DNA of 61,760 bases. It comes from an uncultured Bacilli bacterium. GTDB lineage: Bacteria; Bacillota_I; Bacilli_A; RF39; UBA660. Positions 13,604 through 60,728 of this stretch are shown here, one piece after another. The stretch's first letter is position 1. Each line of letters begins with the position of its first letter. The position numbers were made by a program, and so were the translations under genes. Where the stretch lies: contig CANRGA010000004.1 in the NCBI GenBank assembly GCA_947630055.1, forward strand, positions 1 through 61,760, written 5' to 3'. Below the pieces are notes generated by a model. That model saw only the letters and a list, made by a program, of their open reading frames with translations. It was not told where the DNA came from and searched no databases.

Positions 13604-14923
13604 CTATTCAATGCCTATTCTAAATGGATCATCTAACGTGCCTACCCCGCTAATATCCAAGTCAAACTTCAGATAAAATACTGGACGCACAGGAAGCTCA
13701 CTTCCCACATTCCAACCACCATCGACGTGGCCTCTCAAAGAAACGGACCAAGCATAGAAGTCGTAATCGGTTAGCCCAATACGCGACATAGTCCAATCCG
13801 CACCCCAACCACGTTGTGATGATAACCAACTTACTACAAAATCTTCATTTTTTGCCTCATCTAAAATATAATAATGTTTTGATATCATACAATTATATAT
13901 ACTATTACTTTCAAAACTACTACAATAATCTGTTAAAGTCAATAATCCTATATTTGCTGTTACATTATCGGTTAATTCGTTTTCTCTTTTTACTAATGCT
14001 TCTGATTCTAATTTTGATATTTCTTTTATTTTTTCACGTTTTTGATCATCATTTAATCCACTTTCATAATCATTTTCTTCAGTTCCATATATCGCATCAG
14101 ATAATTCATGATACTTTTCTAGTTCTTTAGGGGTAAATATGTTTTGATTTTCCTCATCAAAATCAATATTGGATATATCGCCATATTTCCATTCTGAATT
14201 TACTATCATTTCTTTTAAATCTATTGATAAGGTATTATAAAATTCACTATTTAAATATTGGTATAATTCACTTTGCGGCCATTTGATATCACTAGAAGAA
14301 TCGCTATTCCATGCAATACTATCATTTGCAGGAACATTTTTTACAACTTTTAATAATCCATCTTCTGTTACTCCAATTATTCGATATAAATCTTTTCCAT
14401 CTTCATTACAGTCTGCACCTAGGCATATATAATTGTTTTTTACTGTATCTTCTCTATCAAATACTCCAGCATCATGATTACTTATTATTGCATTTCCTTG
14501 ATATCTATATAAACCATATACTAATTCGTCTGTTAGTTTACCATCTGATTTTTCTTTTAATATATCTACAATAGATTCTTTTTTTATATCAAAATACAAT
14601 GTGCAATAGACTGTTTGAGTTGTAGTTAATGTTGCTTTTCCATCAGCAAATACTATTACATCTTCTACTAATGCACCATTATTATCTGTACATTTTGCTT
14701 CTTTATATACATATTCTTCACCTGGCCATGTATTACTATCATATTCTTCATAACCAGTTTCATTTTGAATCATTATGGCAAATGATTTATCTTTATTTAC
14801 TATTTCTTTTAATCTAACTTCAGGAAGATCATTATATTTTGACTTCATTATTTTATTACTTATAAATAACACTAAAAATATTCCTGTAATTACTATTAAA
14901 CATTTTAAATATTTTCTTTTCAT
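13604..14923 (-). CDS. Membrane-anchored surface protein with DUF6273-like C-terminus
   Basis: A 439-residue protein with one membrane segment (residues 8-24) and no other, so the rest is expected outside the cell. Residues about 45-115 look like a beta-sandwich ending in TTTQTVYCTLYF; this is followed by an EDTV-YICLG segment and a DLYRIIGV domain. The C-terminal 75 residues (WTMSR, AWSVSLRG, LPVRPVFYLK, GTLDDPFRI) resemble DUF6273-like domains common in gut Bacillota. Codons for residues about 363-437 are far more GC-rich than the rest. Transcription starts at a promoter with an eight-G spacer. Function is unknown; adhesion or recognition would fit. Confidence 0.75.
   Translation of the reverse strand: MKRKYLKCLIVITGIFLVLFISNKIMKSKYNDLPEVRLKEIVNKDKSFAIMIQNETGYEEYDSNTWPGEEYVYKEAKCTDNNGALVEDVIVFADGKATLTTTQTVYCTLYFDIKKESIVDILKEKSDGKLTDELVYGLYRYQGNAIISNHDAGVFDREDTVKNNYICLGADCNEDGKDLYRIIGVTEDGLLKVVKNVPANDSIAWNSDSSSDIKWPQSELYQYLNSEFYNTLSIDLKEMIVNSEWKYGDISNIDFDEENQNIFTPKELEKYHELSDAIYGTEENDYESGLNDDQKREKIKEISKLESEALVKRENELTDNVTANIGLLTLTDYCSSFESNSIYNCMISKHYYILDEAKNEDFVVSWLSSQRGWGADWTMSRIGLTDYDFYAWSVSLRGHVDGGWNVGSELPVRPVFYLKFDLDISGVGTLDDPFRIGIE
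13625..13832 (-). other. GC-rich 3' cassette inside the surface protein gene
   Basis: Bases 13681-13830 count 78 G/C out of 150 (52 percent), while the flanking part of the same gene is about a quarter to 30 percent. The change is abrupt on the 5' side of the codons, near GGTTGGGGTGCG, and fades into the stop codon. The block encodes the WTMSR to VRPVFYL region, the presumed variable face of the domain. Confidence 0.8.
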
Positions 14924-14975
14924 AATCTTATCCTCTCTTTATATGTCGTATCATTGCACTTTATTTTATAAGATT

Positions 14976-15003
14976 ATTATATAATACCCCCCCCGAGAGT
15001 CAA
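14976..15003 (-). promoter_or_regulatory. Promoter with an eight-G spacer, copy 1
   Basis: Read on the minus strand, the -35 TTGACT is at 15003-14998 and the -10 TATAAT at 14981-14976, a 16-base spacing. The spacer contains eight consecutive G (14994-14987). The start codon of the surface protein is 53 bases downstream, with a GAGAGG ribosome binding site. Adding one G would restore the ideal 17-base spacing. Confidence 0.8.
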
Positions 15004-35596: not shown

Positions 35597-36013
35597 TTAT
35601 AATTTATAATATTTTTTTATTAATTCTGCTTCTTTTTTTAATCCTCTTTTTTCAAGTTCTTTAACAAAAACTGGCCATGGTGGAATATTGCTCATATAAG
35701 TTCCACCTGGACCGGTATATAAGCCTCCGCTTGGACCGGTATATAAACCTCCTCCTGGGCCGGTATATAAACCTCCTCCTGGGCCGGTATATAAGCCTCC
35801 TCCTGGGCCGGTATATAAGCCTCCTCCTGGGCCGGTATATAAGCCTCCTCCTGGACCAGTATATAAACCTCCTCCTGGACCGGTATATAAGCCTCCATCT
35901 GGGCCTTCATATGCGCCTCCTCCTGGGCCGGTATATAAGCCTCCTCCTGGACCGGTATATAAGCCTCCTCCTGGGCCGGTATAATTATTTCTAGGCCATT
36001 GGTTCTTTTTCAT
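35597..36013 (-). CDS. Gly/Pro/Tyr-rich tandem repeat protein
   Basis: A protein with a short basic start ([10 protein letters not shown]), thirteen copies of the octapeptide YTGPGGGL, and a non-repetitive end ([28 protein letters not shown] in outline) that looks like one amphipathic helix pair. There is no signal peptide. The start overlaps the end of the ImmA-Fic gene; ATG 36013 or ATG 36019 fits the GAGGAG site. It is the third gene of the XRE / ImmA-Fic module. Function unknown; a target or scaffold for the Fic enzyme is possible. Confidence 0.7.
35698..35992. repeat. 24-bp coding minisatellite, thirteen units
   Basis: Tandem 24-bp units, one octapeptide each, with only scattered base changes. 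Most third-position changes are GGGCC/GGACC and AAGCC/AAACC, and the diverged unit encodes YEGPDGGL. Such high identity suggests recent expansion or gene conversion and likely copy-number variation between strains. Confidence 0.9.
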
Positions 36014-53484: not shown

Positions 53485-53540
53485 AAAAAAATTAATTTAT
53501 TTTGCTTATTTAATAAAACAAAAATAAATTAATTTTTTTT
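53485..53540 (-). terminator. Long AT hairpin terminator after the phase-variable acyltransferase gene
   Basis: On the minus strand an AATTAATTTATTTT arm pairs with its complement AAAATAAATTAATT across an 18-base loop, followed by seven T. It covers the stop codon of the gene at 53529. Confidence 0.75.
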
Positions 53541-54587
53541 CTTAAATATTCTGCAAACATAATTTAATATAATTCCACTAATAATGCTTGATAAAACTGC
53601 AAGCAAAATATTAACTTTATAACTCGAAGTAAGTAGCATCATATTAAATGTACCTTTAACATAAATCATATGGCAAATATAAATATCAAAAGAATATTTA
53701 TCTGAAAAATCTAAAATTCTTTTTATGATTTTATATTTAGTTAGTAATTTTCCTATTAAATAGTAAAAATAAAACAAAGTTAAAGCTTGAAAAAAGCAAC
53801 TATAATTAATTCCTAGATTTACTAAATTAATTAATAATATACCCTCAATATTAGGCTTTATATTATATCTTAAAATATACCAAAAATAAATTACTCCAAA
53901 TAATAATATTGCATTTACTATAGATAAACTTATTTTACTTACTAATTTACTATTTTGAATCTTTTCTTTTAAAAGTGGTAATAGAAAAAATCCAATAAAA
54001 TAGCAATTAATCCTATTTGCAGCAAAATATGAACGAAAGGCATAACCGAAAATCTCAATTAATATCATCCAAATAATAACATATAATACATATTTTATTT
54101 TAGAATCTTTTGATTTCTGTTTTAAATAATTTCTTAAATCATAAAAAAGTGGCGTTAAAATATAACAAAATATAATATATGGAATAAACCATAAATGATT
54201 AACACCATGAAATGTATTAGAAAAAGTTAAAAGCGAAAAAGCACTACCAATTGTAATTGTCCCAGGATTTCTAAAATAATAGATCGGTATAATAACAAAT
54301 ATTACATATACATAATAATCAATTAATATTTTTTTAAAATTTTTAGAAATAAATTTAATTCTTGAAGTGTCTTTTTCAAATAAATCTTTTTTACAGCCAT
54401 ATAAATAGCCTGACAAAATCAAGAAAATTTGAACACCTACAGCTAAAAAATTACCTAATATTCCAACTTTAATACTGTAACCACCATAGCCAATTTGTTC
54501 AAATATATGACAAAATATTACCATAAACATTGCTATAAAACGTATCAAACTCAAATTATAATCTTTTTCTTTATTTATTTCTTTCAT
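53529..54587 (-). CDS. Acyltransferase family 3 membrane protein under a switchable promoter
   Basis: A 352-residue ten-span O-acyltransferase. YNLSLIRFIAMFMVIFCHIFEQ at the N-terminus (in outline) has the catalytic His, followed by QIFLILSGYLYG and HLWFIPYIIFCYI. It is a single gene between a strong terminator and a promoter with an eight-G spacer. It probably decorates a surface polysaccharide or teichoic acid with an acyl group, and its expression is likely on in some cells and weaker in others. Confidence 0.87.
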   Translation of the reverse strand: MKEINKEKDYNLSLIRFIAMFMVIFCHIFEQIGYGGYSIKVGILGNFLAVGVQIFLILSGYLYGCKKDLFEKDTSRIKFISKNFKKILIDYYVYVIFVIIPIYYFRNPGTITIGSAFSLLTFSNTFHGVNHLWFIPYIIFCYILTPLFYDLRNYLKQKSKDSKIKYVLYVIIWMILIEIFGYAFRSYFAANRINCYFIGFFLLPLLKEKIQNSKLVSKISLSIVNAILLFGVIYFWYILRYNIKPNIEGILLINLVNLGINYSCFFQALTLFYFYYLIGKLLTKYKIIKRILDFSDKYSFDIYICHMIYVKGTFNMMLLTSSYKVNILLAVLSSIISGIILNYVCRIFKKKN

Positions 54588-54614: not shown

Positions 54615-54642
54615 ATTTTATAATACCCCCCCCGAGAGTCAA
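54615..54642 (-). promoter_or_regulatory. Promoter with an eight-G spacer, copy 2
   Basis: The -35 TTGACT is at 54642-54637 and a -10 TAAAAT at 54620-54615, 16 bases apart, with eight G at 54633-54626. From the -35 through TATTATA it is identical to copy 1 (24 bases). The start codon is 28 bases downstream with an AAGGAAA site. Confidence 0.8.
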
Positions 54643-57961: not shown

Positions 57962-59125
57962 TTAAATATTATTTGGAAAATTTAAATTGCTTGTTTTAAA
58001 TTTTTCACGAACAACTTTGTAACTACTATATTCGTATAATATCACTTTTGGCAAATCACGACTTAAAAATAATGATATACCTTCAGTACTTGAATATGCT
58101 CCAACATTTTTAAAAACAAAAATGTCATCTATTTTTAATTTACGACAAGTTATATTTTTTACTAAAAAATCATTTATCGTACATAATGAACCACATAAAT
58201 TATATGTTTCATTAACATCATCTTTATGAGGTAATAATTCATAATGTGGTATTTTCATTCCCATTGTCTGACCATAATATACTAAATGATTAATACCACC
58301 ATCCATAATTACAAAATTACCATATTTATTAGTTTTCATATCAACCACTTTAGTAAGATAAGATCCACAAGATGCCGCAATACTTCTACCTATTTCTAAT
58401 GTTACTTTTTTATTTTTTATCTTATCAAGAATTACTTTAAAACTCTCCAAAAATTCATCTTCAGCAAATTCTTCACCTTGATAATAATATACTGGCAAGC
58501 CAGTACCAAATTCAATTTCTTTTACTTCAAAATTCAATTCTTTTTCAATTTTTGCAGTTAGTTCTATCAAATAATCTATTTCTTTTTCTAATCTTTTTAA
58601 AGAATGTTTTTGTGTTCCAGAGAAATATTCAATACCATCAATAATAATAAAATCTTTATTATAAATATTAATTAATTCAAATAATTCATCTTCATTAATA
58701 CCAAATTGATTACCACTAGTTAATCTAGGTAAAACATGTAAACAACAATTATATTTTTGCGATAGTTTTAGTAAAAGATTATATTGATTAATTGATTCAA
58801 TAGTATATTTTGGCAAACTACCATGATTTTTTATTATATTTTCAATTGTTTCTTCATCTTTATAAACACCAGATATAACCATTTTTTCAGGATTAATATT
58901 TAGTTTATCGCAAATTTCATATTCACCTGGAGAACATATTTCAAATCGTGAAACACTATTTTCTAAATGTTTAGCAATAAACGTATTAGCTTTTACTGCA
59001 TAAACCAAATCATATTTTGAACCAAGTCTCTGCTTTAAATATTCTACTCTTTTTAAAAGAACATCAGTATCATAAACATAACTAGGTGTACCATATTCTT
59101 TAACTATTTTATTATAATCTATCAT
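57962..59125 (-). CDS. PLP-dependent decarboxylase-fold enzyme (LysA family)
   Basis: A fold-type III PLP enzyme of 387 residues. Lys45 in VYAVKANTF should bind PLP; EIEFGTGLPVYY and EIGRSIAASCGSYLT bind phosphate and cofactor; LCGSLCTINDFL is the C-terminal active-site loop with the catalytic Cys. It is shorter than most diaminopimelate decarboxylases and sits between an adenylating enzyme and a carrier protein, overlapping the former by four bases. It may make the amino acid or amine that is loaded on the carrier. Normal dlt operons lack such a gene. Confidence 0.85.
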   Translation of the reverse strand: MIDYNKIVKEYGTPSYVYDTDVLLKRVEYLKQRLGSKYDLVYAVKANTFIAKHLENSVSRFEICSPGEYEICDKLNINPEKMVISGVYKDEETIENIIKNHGSLPKYTIESINQYNLLLKLSQKYNCCLHVLPRLTSGNQFGINEDELFELINIYNKDFIIIDGIEYFSGTQKHSLKRLEKEIDYLIELTAKIEKELNFEVKEIEFGTGLPVYYYQGEEFAEDEFLESFKVILDKIKNKKVTLEIGRSIAASCGSYLTKVVDMKTNKYGNFVIMDGGINHLVYYGQTMGMKIPHYELLPHKDDVNETYNLCGSLCTINDFLVKNITCRKLKIDDIFVFKNVGAYSSTEGISLFLSRDLPKVILYEYSSYKVVREKFKTSNLNFPNNI

Positions 59126-60633
59126 ACTTTTTCACCTACTCCTGCAATTAACTTTTTACGATCGATTTTTCCGTTCTTTGTCATTGGGAAAACATCCTTT
59201 TTTATAAGTTTAGTAGGGATCATATATACTGGTAAAACTTCACTTAATTTAGCATGTAATTCTTTTTTATCAATATCGCCAATGTAAAAACCATAAAGGC
59301 GAGATTTTTCTTCATCAAATATGCAACAACTTCTAATTACTTCAGGAAAATCCATCAAAGCTTTATCTATTTCTTCAAGTTCAATTCTATGCCCCATATA
59401 TTTTATTTGAAAATCTTTACGCCCCGTAAAAACTATTTCATCAAATTCGTTTATATATCCTAGATCTCCTGTTCGATAAATCATATCCAAATAATTATTG
59501 TTATTAGGATTTTGCATAAAATGATTTCTTGTTTGTTCTTCATTATTGTAATATCCTAATCCTAAAGCTGTTCCAGCTACACAAATTTCACCTGTTTTAT
59601 TTCTATCATCAATAATTTCATTTTTATCATTTAGTAATATTACTCTTTCATTTGGAAAAGGTAATCCTACTGGAATTTTTTCTTCATAATTTCTATTTCT
59701 ATCTATAATATGATATAAACAATTACAAGTTATTTCCGTTGGACCATAAATATTTACAAATGTAGTATCTGGTAATTTGTCCATCCACATTTTAAGATGC
59801 TTTAAAGGCATTACTTCGCCACTGAAAAGGATTTTTTTAACTGAAGTAGGTACTTTGTAGTCAAGACCATGAAAAGTTGTAATTAAGCATAAAGCGGATA
59901 CTGCCCAAGTTAATGTATTAACATTATGCTCACAAATGTAATCTAACAAAAGTGCTGGATTAGAAAAATATTTTTTAGGGATAATGACAAGCGTAGCGCC
60001 CATTTTAATCGCTGAAAATATATCTTTAACTGAAACATCAAAATCAAATGGAGCTTGATTTCCTATTATATCGTTTTCGGTAAAATTAAAAAGACATGTA
60101 AAAACATCAATAAAATCTATAACAGAGCGATGTGATATAACTACACCCTTAGGAACTCCAGTTGAACCTGAAGTGAAATTTACATATAATGGATCACAAT
60201 CAATGTGTTTATTGTAACAAACATTTAAAATATTATTATCTATTTTGCCTTTTTTTAAATCGCCAATTTTTACTACTTCTAAATCTTTAAAATACTTATT
60301 TGCTTCATCATAGTATTCAGAATTAGTAATGACTATTTTAGATTTTATTGTTTCTTTAATTTGATTTATTCTTACTTCAGGTAATTCTGGATTAATTAAC
60401 GAATAAAAACACCCAGCATAAATTGTACCAAAAAAAGCAATTAAAGTATCTATCCCTTTATCCATAAATACTATAACTGGTTCATTAAATTGTTTTTTAC
60501 CAATATATGATCCAACAATTTTACTATAATTGTTTAATTCACTATAATTTATCTTTTTATCTTCTTCAATTATGGCAATTTTATCTTTAAATTTTTTACT
60601 TGAATTTTCTAAATAATCTATAACATTATACAT
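59122..60633 (-). CDS. DltA-like amino acid adenylating enzyme
   Basis: A 503-residue AMP-forming ligase that activates an amino or other acid and loads it onto the carrier protein. Core motifs are NFTSGSTGVPKGVV (P-loop), FVNIYGPTEIT (motif A5), YRTGDLGY (A7) and a C-terminal NGKIDRKKL (A10 lysine). The size and gene order match DltA, but D-alanine specificity is not proven, and the neighbouring PLP enzyme suggests another substrate. It heads the operon. Its start has a GGGTGA site and its promoter has an eight-G spacer. Confidence 0.88.
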   Translation of the reverse strand: MYNVIDYLENSSKKFKDKIAIIEEDKKINYSELNNYSKIVGSYIGKKQFNEPVIVFMDKGIDTLIAFFGTIYAGCFYSLINPELPEVRINQIKETIKSKIVITNSEYYDEANKYFKDLEVVKIGDLKKGKIDNNILNVCYNKHIDCDPLYVNFTSGSTGVPKGVVISHRSVIDFIDVFTCLFNFTENDIIGNQAPFDFDVSVKDIFSAIKMGATLVIIPKKYFSNPALLLDYICEHNVNTLTWAVSALCLITTFHGLDYKVPTSVKKILFSGEVMPLKHLKMWMDKLPDTTFVNIYGPTEITCNCLYHIIDRNRNYEEKIPVGLPFPNERVILLNDKNEIIDDRNKTGEICVAGTALGLGYYNNEEQTRNHFMQNPNNNNYLDMIYRTGDLGYINEFDEIVFTGRKDFQIKYMGHRIELEEIDKALMDFPEVIRSCCIFDEEKSRLYGFYIGDIDKKELHAKLSEVLPVYMIPTKLIKKDVFPMTKNGKIDRKKLIAGVGEKV

Positions 60634-60698: not shown

Positions 60699-60728
60699 AT
60701 TATAGTATACCCCCCCCGAATTTGTAAA
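60699..60728 (-). promoter_or_regulatory. Promoter with an eight-G spacer, copy 3
   Basis: The -35 TTTACA is at 60728-60723 and a perfect TATAAT at 60704-60699, 18 bases apart. The spacer has eight G at 60717-60710. Losing one G would give the ideal 17 bases. The block after the -10 (ATTCTTATA) is shared with copy 2 and nearly with copy 1. The dlt-like operon starts 66 bases downstream. Confidence 0.78.

Follow-up and report, generated by a model that had tools for sequence, protein, structure and literature searches.

A poly-G promoter and a putative DGR-derived 3' segment on a predicted lectin-fold DUF6273 surface protein of an uncultured Bacilli bacterium

Surface-protein genes with a G homopolymer in the promoter are known in N. 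meningitidis (porA) and T. pallidum (tp0126, tprE/G/J) (PMC3639595, PMC7864442). In porA and tp0126, the G tract lies between the -35 and -10 elements and sets their distance, as it does at the locus described here (PMC3639595, PMC7864442). Tracts of 11G, 10G and 9G in porA give graded expression (PMC3639595), and length-dependent control has been established for the T. pallidum poly-G promoters (PMC7864442).

In the remote-target diversity-generating retroelements (DGRs) of Treponema denticola, Thiohalocapsa PB-PSB1 and cyanobacteria, a reverse transcriptase (RT) is accompanied by an accessory protein and the change from template repeat to variable region (VR) is adenine-specific (PMC4891356, PMC10907252, PMC7517822). 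Their targets have the C-type lectin fold and lie away from the RT, as in the present genome (PMC4891356, PMC10907252, PMC7517822). DUF6273 structurally resembles the C-type lectin (PMC10743442), and DUF6273 proteins with a C-terminal VR are DGR targets in Faecalibacterium phages (PMC11792537). These phage targets and the tentaclins have DUF6273 and a lectin-like fold in common with the protein family studied here (PMC11792537, PMC10743442), and in the Faecalibacterium phage targets the VR is located at the C terminus of DUF6273, as here (PMC11792537).

The window, i.e. the whole stretch of 61,760 nucleotides that was analysed (contig CANRGA010000004.1 of assembly GCA_947630055.1), comes from a gut bacterium and contains a gene in which the two themes meet. 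We think it probable that this gene is a dispersed member of a DGR-diversified, membrane-anchored, lectin-fold DUF6273 family, that it carries a VR or a VR remnant, and that its promoter contains a slipping G8 tract.

The window gene and its G8 promoter

The gene, its product and its promoter have the following features.

13604..14923, minus strand: gene for the 439-aa surface protein P0001, DUF6273 family, with an N-terminal membrane helix (PF19789, E=1.6e-8)
14837..14917, minus strand: N-terminal hydrophobic helix, residues 3-29, membrane anchor or signal (sequence and AF2 model)
13607..14578, minus strand: exposed domain, residues 116-439, predicted C-type lectin fold (AF2 pLDDT 87.8, pTM 0.89)
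14931..14938, minus strand: ribosome-binding site AGAGAGGA (sequence; conserved across the repeated 5' block)
14976..14981, minus strand: -10 hexamer TATAAT (sequence; computed spacer to the -35 hexamer 16 bp)
14987..14994, minus strand: G8 homopolymer in the promoter spacer, candidate slippage tract (sequence; excess over shuffles)
14998..15003, minus strand: -35 hexamer TTGACT (sequence)

P0001 scored 35.0 bits against the DUF6273 profile PF19789, above the gathering score of 23.5. When the domain model was compared with solved structures by VIA-align, the best match was 9qa6 (Z 15.0 over 202 residues, 16% identity), the N-terminal DUF6273 domain of the Thomasclavelia ramosa IgA peptidase, which is the closest solved fold to P0001. 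Unlike that peptidase, P0001 is without a protease domain. Many C-type lectin domains followed with Z of 5-7.3; each of these matches is weak alone, and it is their agreement that argues for a C-type lectin fold in the model. Foldseek alone, run with the full-length model, gave no match below E 0.3, and the lectin fold emerged from the domain model with VIA-align. The gene is a mosaic. Over residues 167-250 its product shares 87-93% identity with that of the target gene on contig C28; over the N-terminal 115 residues, which are of the MKRKYLK paralogue group, the identity is 15-38%.

Read on the minus strand, the promoter at 14976-15003 is TTGACT-CTC-GGGGGGGG-TATTA-TATAAT, in which GGGGGGGG is the G8 tract, and the start codon is the ATG at 14923, located 3' of AGAGAGGA. 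At 8 nt, the tract is as long as the homopolymers of promoter phase variation (at least about 7-8 nt). The initial annotation had placed its promoter "copy 1" in front of the gene at 13604-14923. This was right. Two more tracts of this kind stand in the window, each in front of an enzyme gene.

54626..54633, minus strand: promoter copy 2, G8 (TTGACT at 54637-54642)
53529..54587, minus strand: acyltransferase 3, downstream of copy 2 (PF01757, E=1.4e-27)
60710..60717, minus strand: promoter copy 3, G8 (TTTACA, 18-bp spacer, TATAAT)
59122..60633, minus strand: adenylate-forming (DltA-like, AMP-binding) enzyme, downstream of copy 3 (PF00501, E=2.1e-59)

The window is AT-rich, and G7 runs are far above chance in it: six overlapping matches, which form three G8 tracts, were found against an expectation of 0.24 and in 0/100 shuffles. 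The same holds for the genome, which has 38 tracts of G7 or longer versus about 0.4 expected from base composition, and 21 copies of the pattern TTGAC-N-G7-N-TATAAT versus 0 for the reversed control pattern. The -35 hexamer is identical over 22 matched copies, its TTGAC part being fixed by the search pattern itself. Exactly G8 was found in 37 of the 38 G7+ tracts and G7 in one; one G6 copy of the same promoter was found in addition. Wherever a gene was recovered, the G tract was on the coding strand and the gene start was at most 76 bp away. These genes are mostly for surface proteins. They include about 18 DUF6273-like proteins, about eight members of a second family (MKKVIKNNYKFILG...) with a weak FGE-sulfatase match, proteins with terminal NPxTGDN sortase-like signals, one acyltransferase and one adenylate-forming enzyme. 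The common promoter block starts at the -35 hexamer, takes in the 5' leader and ends at the start codon, and the DNA upstream of it is mostly unique per locus. Spacers between -35 and -10 are 15-19 bp across the genome, mostly 16 and 18, while the tract length stays constant.

Several other observations concern the arrangement of these promoters. At C5:30.8-37.8k, three adjoining genes for NPxTGDN-ending proteins each have their own G8 promoter of another type, with an 18-bp spacer. At about position 5000 of contig C28, a promoter combines the -35 half of window copy 3 with the -10 half of the common block, passing from one to the other at the G8. Contigs C6 and C16 share nearly the same block (CCCGAATAAAAGTGGTAC...) at positions 1-90, upstream of a G8 promoter, which may be a recombination site or the end of a mobile element. 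Promoter inversion or site-specific recombination was set aside, as the upstream sequence is mostly unique per copy and the orientation to the gene is constant; no dedicated search for inverted repeats was made. The promoter had no match in the viral contig collection, and there is thus no sign that it is phage-borne.

Tract length in this genome and its relatives

Among copies with the same flanks, one relative had 13 tracts of G9, 12 of G8 and one G7 interrupted by A, a second relative had 11 of G9, 15 of G8 and one of G7, and a third had two of G9 and 17 of G8. At one orthologous locus, the tract was G9 in relative G014 and G8 in relative G031, and the downstream 50 nt were identical. In related species, tract length therefore differs between same-flank copies and, at this orthologous locus, between genomes; in the present genome, the one G7 tract and the one G6 copy are the differences in length. 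Over all the related promoters found, lengths ranged from G6 to G14 with a mode of G8 (68/120), the G14, the G12 and one G11 tract stemming from MAGs labelled Alphaproteobacteria. A pattern search with W at both ends undersampled the tracts, probably owing to a conserved base at one anchor, and was excluded from these counts. The named genome collection, which may not include the window's own record or the nearest ones, gave no promoter of exactly the window's type, and a looser pattern led there to rabbit-gut Bacilli MAGs. MAGs labelled Alphaproteobacteria have very similar TTGACTCT-Gn-TAT promoters with n of 11 to 14.

Slippage of the G tract is likely, because same-flank copies in sister species differ in length. 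The window promoter is probably phase-variable, an assignment drawn from the relatives, since the tract is almost invariant in this genome. Expression would then change with tract length, and switching would take place within one clone. The initial annotation had called the promoter switchable and had set this against an identical tract together with an identical 3' end everywhere. That outcome was not seen; lengths vary across related genomes, with the G9/G8 pair at the orthologous locus. The homopolymer in the promoter spacer and its variation in relatives uphold the term, but the near-uniform G8 of this genome tempers it.

Relatives of the adenylate-forming, AMP-binding enzyme behind copy 3 were found in 12 of the 38 genus-set genomes, this one counted, and no G tract was found upstream of the ten near-full-length relatives in the genus set (38-74% identity). 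On this comparison, the copy-3 tract was most likely gained in the present genome.

Near-constant G8 together with variable spacers looks more constrained than free slippage. The G8 could accordingly be a fixed promoter element, either a regulator box or a spacer of exact length, that does not switch, and the genes behind it would form a co-regulated surface regulon. Such an element would account for the 37 tracts of exactly eight, for a G8 that holds although spacers vary within 15-19 bp and upstream sequence varies too, for the G on the coding strand at every tract with a recovered gene, and for the prevalence of G8 in the relatives as well (68/120). It does not sit easily with G7-G9 among same-flank copies inside one genome and the G9/G8 orthologue pair in the relatives, and the range of G6-G14 over all promoters found implies that exactly eight is not required across the genus. 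We regard a fixed element as rather unlikely. That the tracts are an assembly artefact of a homopolymer or repeat is hardly credible: 12 of the 38 G7+ tracts do stand 135 bp or less from a contig end (0.5 expected), but most tracts are contig-internal with unique upstream sequence, and other species, assembled independently, have similar promoters. The tracts near contig ends are on C2, C6, C8, C15, C16, C23, C25, C27, C31, C37, C41 and C43. Contigs C15 and C37 end at a G tract, and repeats or mixed lengths may break the assembly at tracts near contig ends.

The GC-rich 3' block and the DGRs of the genome

Two nested features mark the 3' end of the window gene.

13604..13813, minus strand: GC-rich 3' block named in the initial annotation (GC and GC3 shift)
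13681..13789, minus strand: VR-like segment (ATGTCGCG...CGTCCAG), homologous to the C28 VR and to the template repeat TR30 (alignment, codon signature)

The GC content of the last 240 nt is 0.45 versus 0.29 for the gene, and GC3 in the 36 codons before RPVFYL is 0.50 versus 0.10 in the gene body. In the ten other window genes, whole-gene GC3 is 0.08-0.14 and no 60-codon block exceeds 0.25. The "atypical 3' cassette" of the initial annotation is therefore borne out by both measures. The VR-like segment is located at the C terminus of the predicted C-type-lectin-fold domain.

Three RVT_1 ORFs, at C43, C28 and C3, were detected in the genome by Pfam search. The RTs carry PIGNMTSQ/PIGNFTSQ and YMDD motifs, and the DGR-type motif [I/V/L]GxxxSQ is present at all three loci. 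Avd and MutS_I-like genes adjoin the RT ORFs; of the matches to bAvd/DivGenRetAVD, only the one to bAvd at C3 reaches its curated cut-off. In alignment, paralogues on C43 and C13 have near-identical flanks around a hypervariable block of about 31 codons, in which third positions are mostly kept. A template repeat (TR) predicted from this pair, with A at every difference, located the real TR on C43, where the order is target, TR, MutS_I-like, Avd and RT. Between the C43 VR and its TR, 22/36 A sites are changed and 0/76 non-A sites. On C28, Avd and RT come after the target with no TR between, and the TR of this target is the free-standing TR30 on C30; here 16/37 A and 1/69 non-A sites are changed (p=5e-8), and third positions are kept at 35/35.

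In front of the C3 operon (MutS_I-like/Avd/RT) lie a second-family target and four TRs arrayed in tandem. The C3 cis VR differs from the last TR at 9/24 A and 5/126 non-A sites, a weaker A-specificity. A trans target with a C43-type VR lies at C3:41.9-43.6k (17/36 A changed, 5/76 non-A). Two DGRs are demonstrated by the adenine-specific TR/VR comparison, and the cis VR of the third operon fits one of its four TRs less cleanly. An ungapped TR scan of the window and the DGR loci found a TR for the C43 target only; those on C3 and C30 were found by reading intergenic DNA and by cassette search. Matches to the C43 TR cassette occur in 23/38 genus-set genomes, several per genome.

Some further details of these loci were recorded. 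The four tandem TRs, at C3:14.5-16.3k between the target gene and the operon, are non-identical. The TR cassette at C30:11597-11744 (minus strand) and those of relatives have a conserved 3' flank. No RT was seen in the DNA read around the C30 cassette, and across the genus up to ten related matches occur per genome. A 24-bp GC-rich tandem repeat of 12 copies, likely a collagen-like Gly-Pro repeat, lies at 35694-35983 of the window, and another collagen-like gene is present on C3 (13286-13795 of the stretch containing the TR array).

The segment in the window gene aligns from ATGTCGCG to CGTCCAG with TR30 and the C28 VR, with one extra codon. A-ending codons make up 3/36 in it versus 51% in the gene body (p=5e-8), and the proven VRs have 0-1/36. 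In the VR block, comparison with the C28 gene shows codon position 3 to be better conserved than positions 1-2, and most other parts of the gene show the reverse. Judging from codon use and alignment, a DGR VR or its remains is the best explanation of the 3' block. The initial annotation had described an atypical, GC-rich cassette in the exposed C-terminal domain. A 3' block of different origin is upheld, but the account was incomplete, and a DGR VR explains the block better.

The window VR differs from TR30 at 25/37 A and 25/69 non-A sites, and it is therefore not a TR30 product. No TR accounting for it was found in the assembly, which is 90% complete, nor in the window by the ungapped scan. 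In BPP-1, a downstream hairpin is needed for retrohoming (PMC3240598). A GC-rich hairpin after the stop codon is present only at the three cis targets and is absent at the window gene and the other dispersed copies. Because of the lack of a matching template and of the hairpin, the window VR is more likely a retired, drifting DGR product than an active target. Over the paralogues, VR GC3 falls from 0.72 to 0.06. This range would fit VRs that fade after diversification stops, and different ancestral templates could also produce it.

The VR might still be an active remote target whose TR belongs to the tenth of the genome missing from the assembly. The assembly is broken at repeats as well as incomplete, TRs can be free-standing, like TR30 on C30, or stand in arrays of four, and trans targets do exist in this genome. 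The missing downstream hairpin and the difference at about a third of the non-A sites from the nearest TR tell against activity, and we hold a remote target to be rather unlikely. The mosaic structure of the gene could instead suggest that the block is an ordinary cassette, acquired by import or recombination and having nothing to do with retrohoming. Such a cassette would not be expected to match the proven paralogue VRs in position, 3' boundary and composition, to be depleted of A-ending codons as they are, or to diverge more at positions 1-2 than at position 3, and this origin is quite improbable. A retired VR is the preferred reading of the segment.

Two proposed mechanisms on one family, and known systems

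The following course of events is proposed. A template repeat would have been copied by the mutagenic RT with its adenines randomised, and the cDNA would have replaced the 3' segment of the window gene (core 13681-13789), giving new sequence to those strands of the lectin fold that face the ligand. Since then the VR would most likely have been retired and have drifted; less likely, it is a remote target with a template absent from the assembly. Independently, the G8 tract would slip by one or more G during replication, which would bring the -35/-10 distance closer to 17 bp or take it further from that value, and the changed spacer would make expression differ cell by cell.

The initial annotation had pointed to two variation signals on one surface protein. 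Both are real, but they are not peculiar to this gene and recur over more than 20 paralogues. They may reflect selection for antigenic or ligand diversity, with a ligand or immune role for the proteins. Across 36 relatives, the counts of G-tract promoters and of TR cassettes showed no correlation (rho -0.12), which means that the two mechanisms are not obligately coupled; here they are combined. We put forward a two-layer system, tentatively and with more doubt than belief. A few DGR loci, each with a cis target and hairpin, own or free-standing TRs and MutS_I-like/Avd/RT, would make new lectin specificities. These would be copied out and stored at scattered loci, every copy with a phase-variable G8 promoter of its own, and the subset of these retroelement-made receptors that a cell expresses would change.

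Compared with porA and the T. pallidum genes, the G tracts here occupy dozens of loci per genome, mostly with one promoter block, in an uncultured Bacilli genus. They are 8-9 long with little spread in the genome. Unlike the remote-target DGRs cited above, three DGRs, a four-TR tandem array and free-standing TRs are present in a 1.2-Mb genome, and the family has more than 20 paralogous members, most of them under G8 promoters. The phage DUF6273 targets and tentaclins are phage proteins, whereas those described here are chromosomal, membrane-anchored and preceded by poly-G promoters. Among the papers covered by full-text search, none joins poly-G promoter switching with DGR hypermutation in a single protein family. 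Both mechanisms are known separately, and their combination over a dispersed family in one small genome is apparently undescribed.

The GC3 and A-ending-codon signature offers a simple way to find old VRs that have lost their template. Two questions become open to test: whether the products of DGRs are kept in store once diversified, and whether small gut Bacilli recognise host, phage or partner through such repertoires. In a host-associated bacterium whose genome is 1.2 Mb, the joint use of both mechanisms would amount to a compact counterpart of the archives used in antigen variation.
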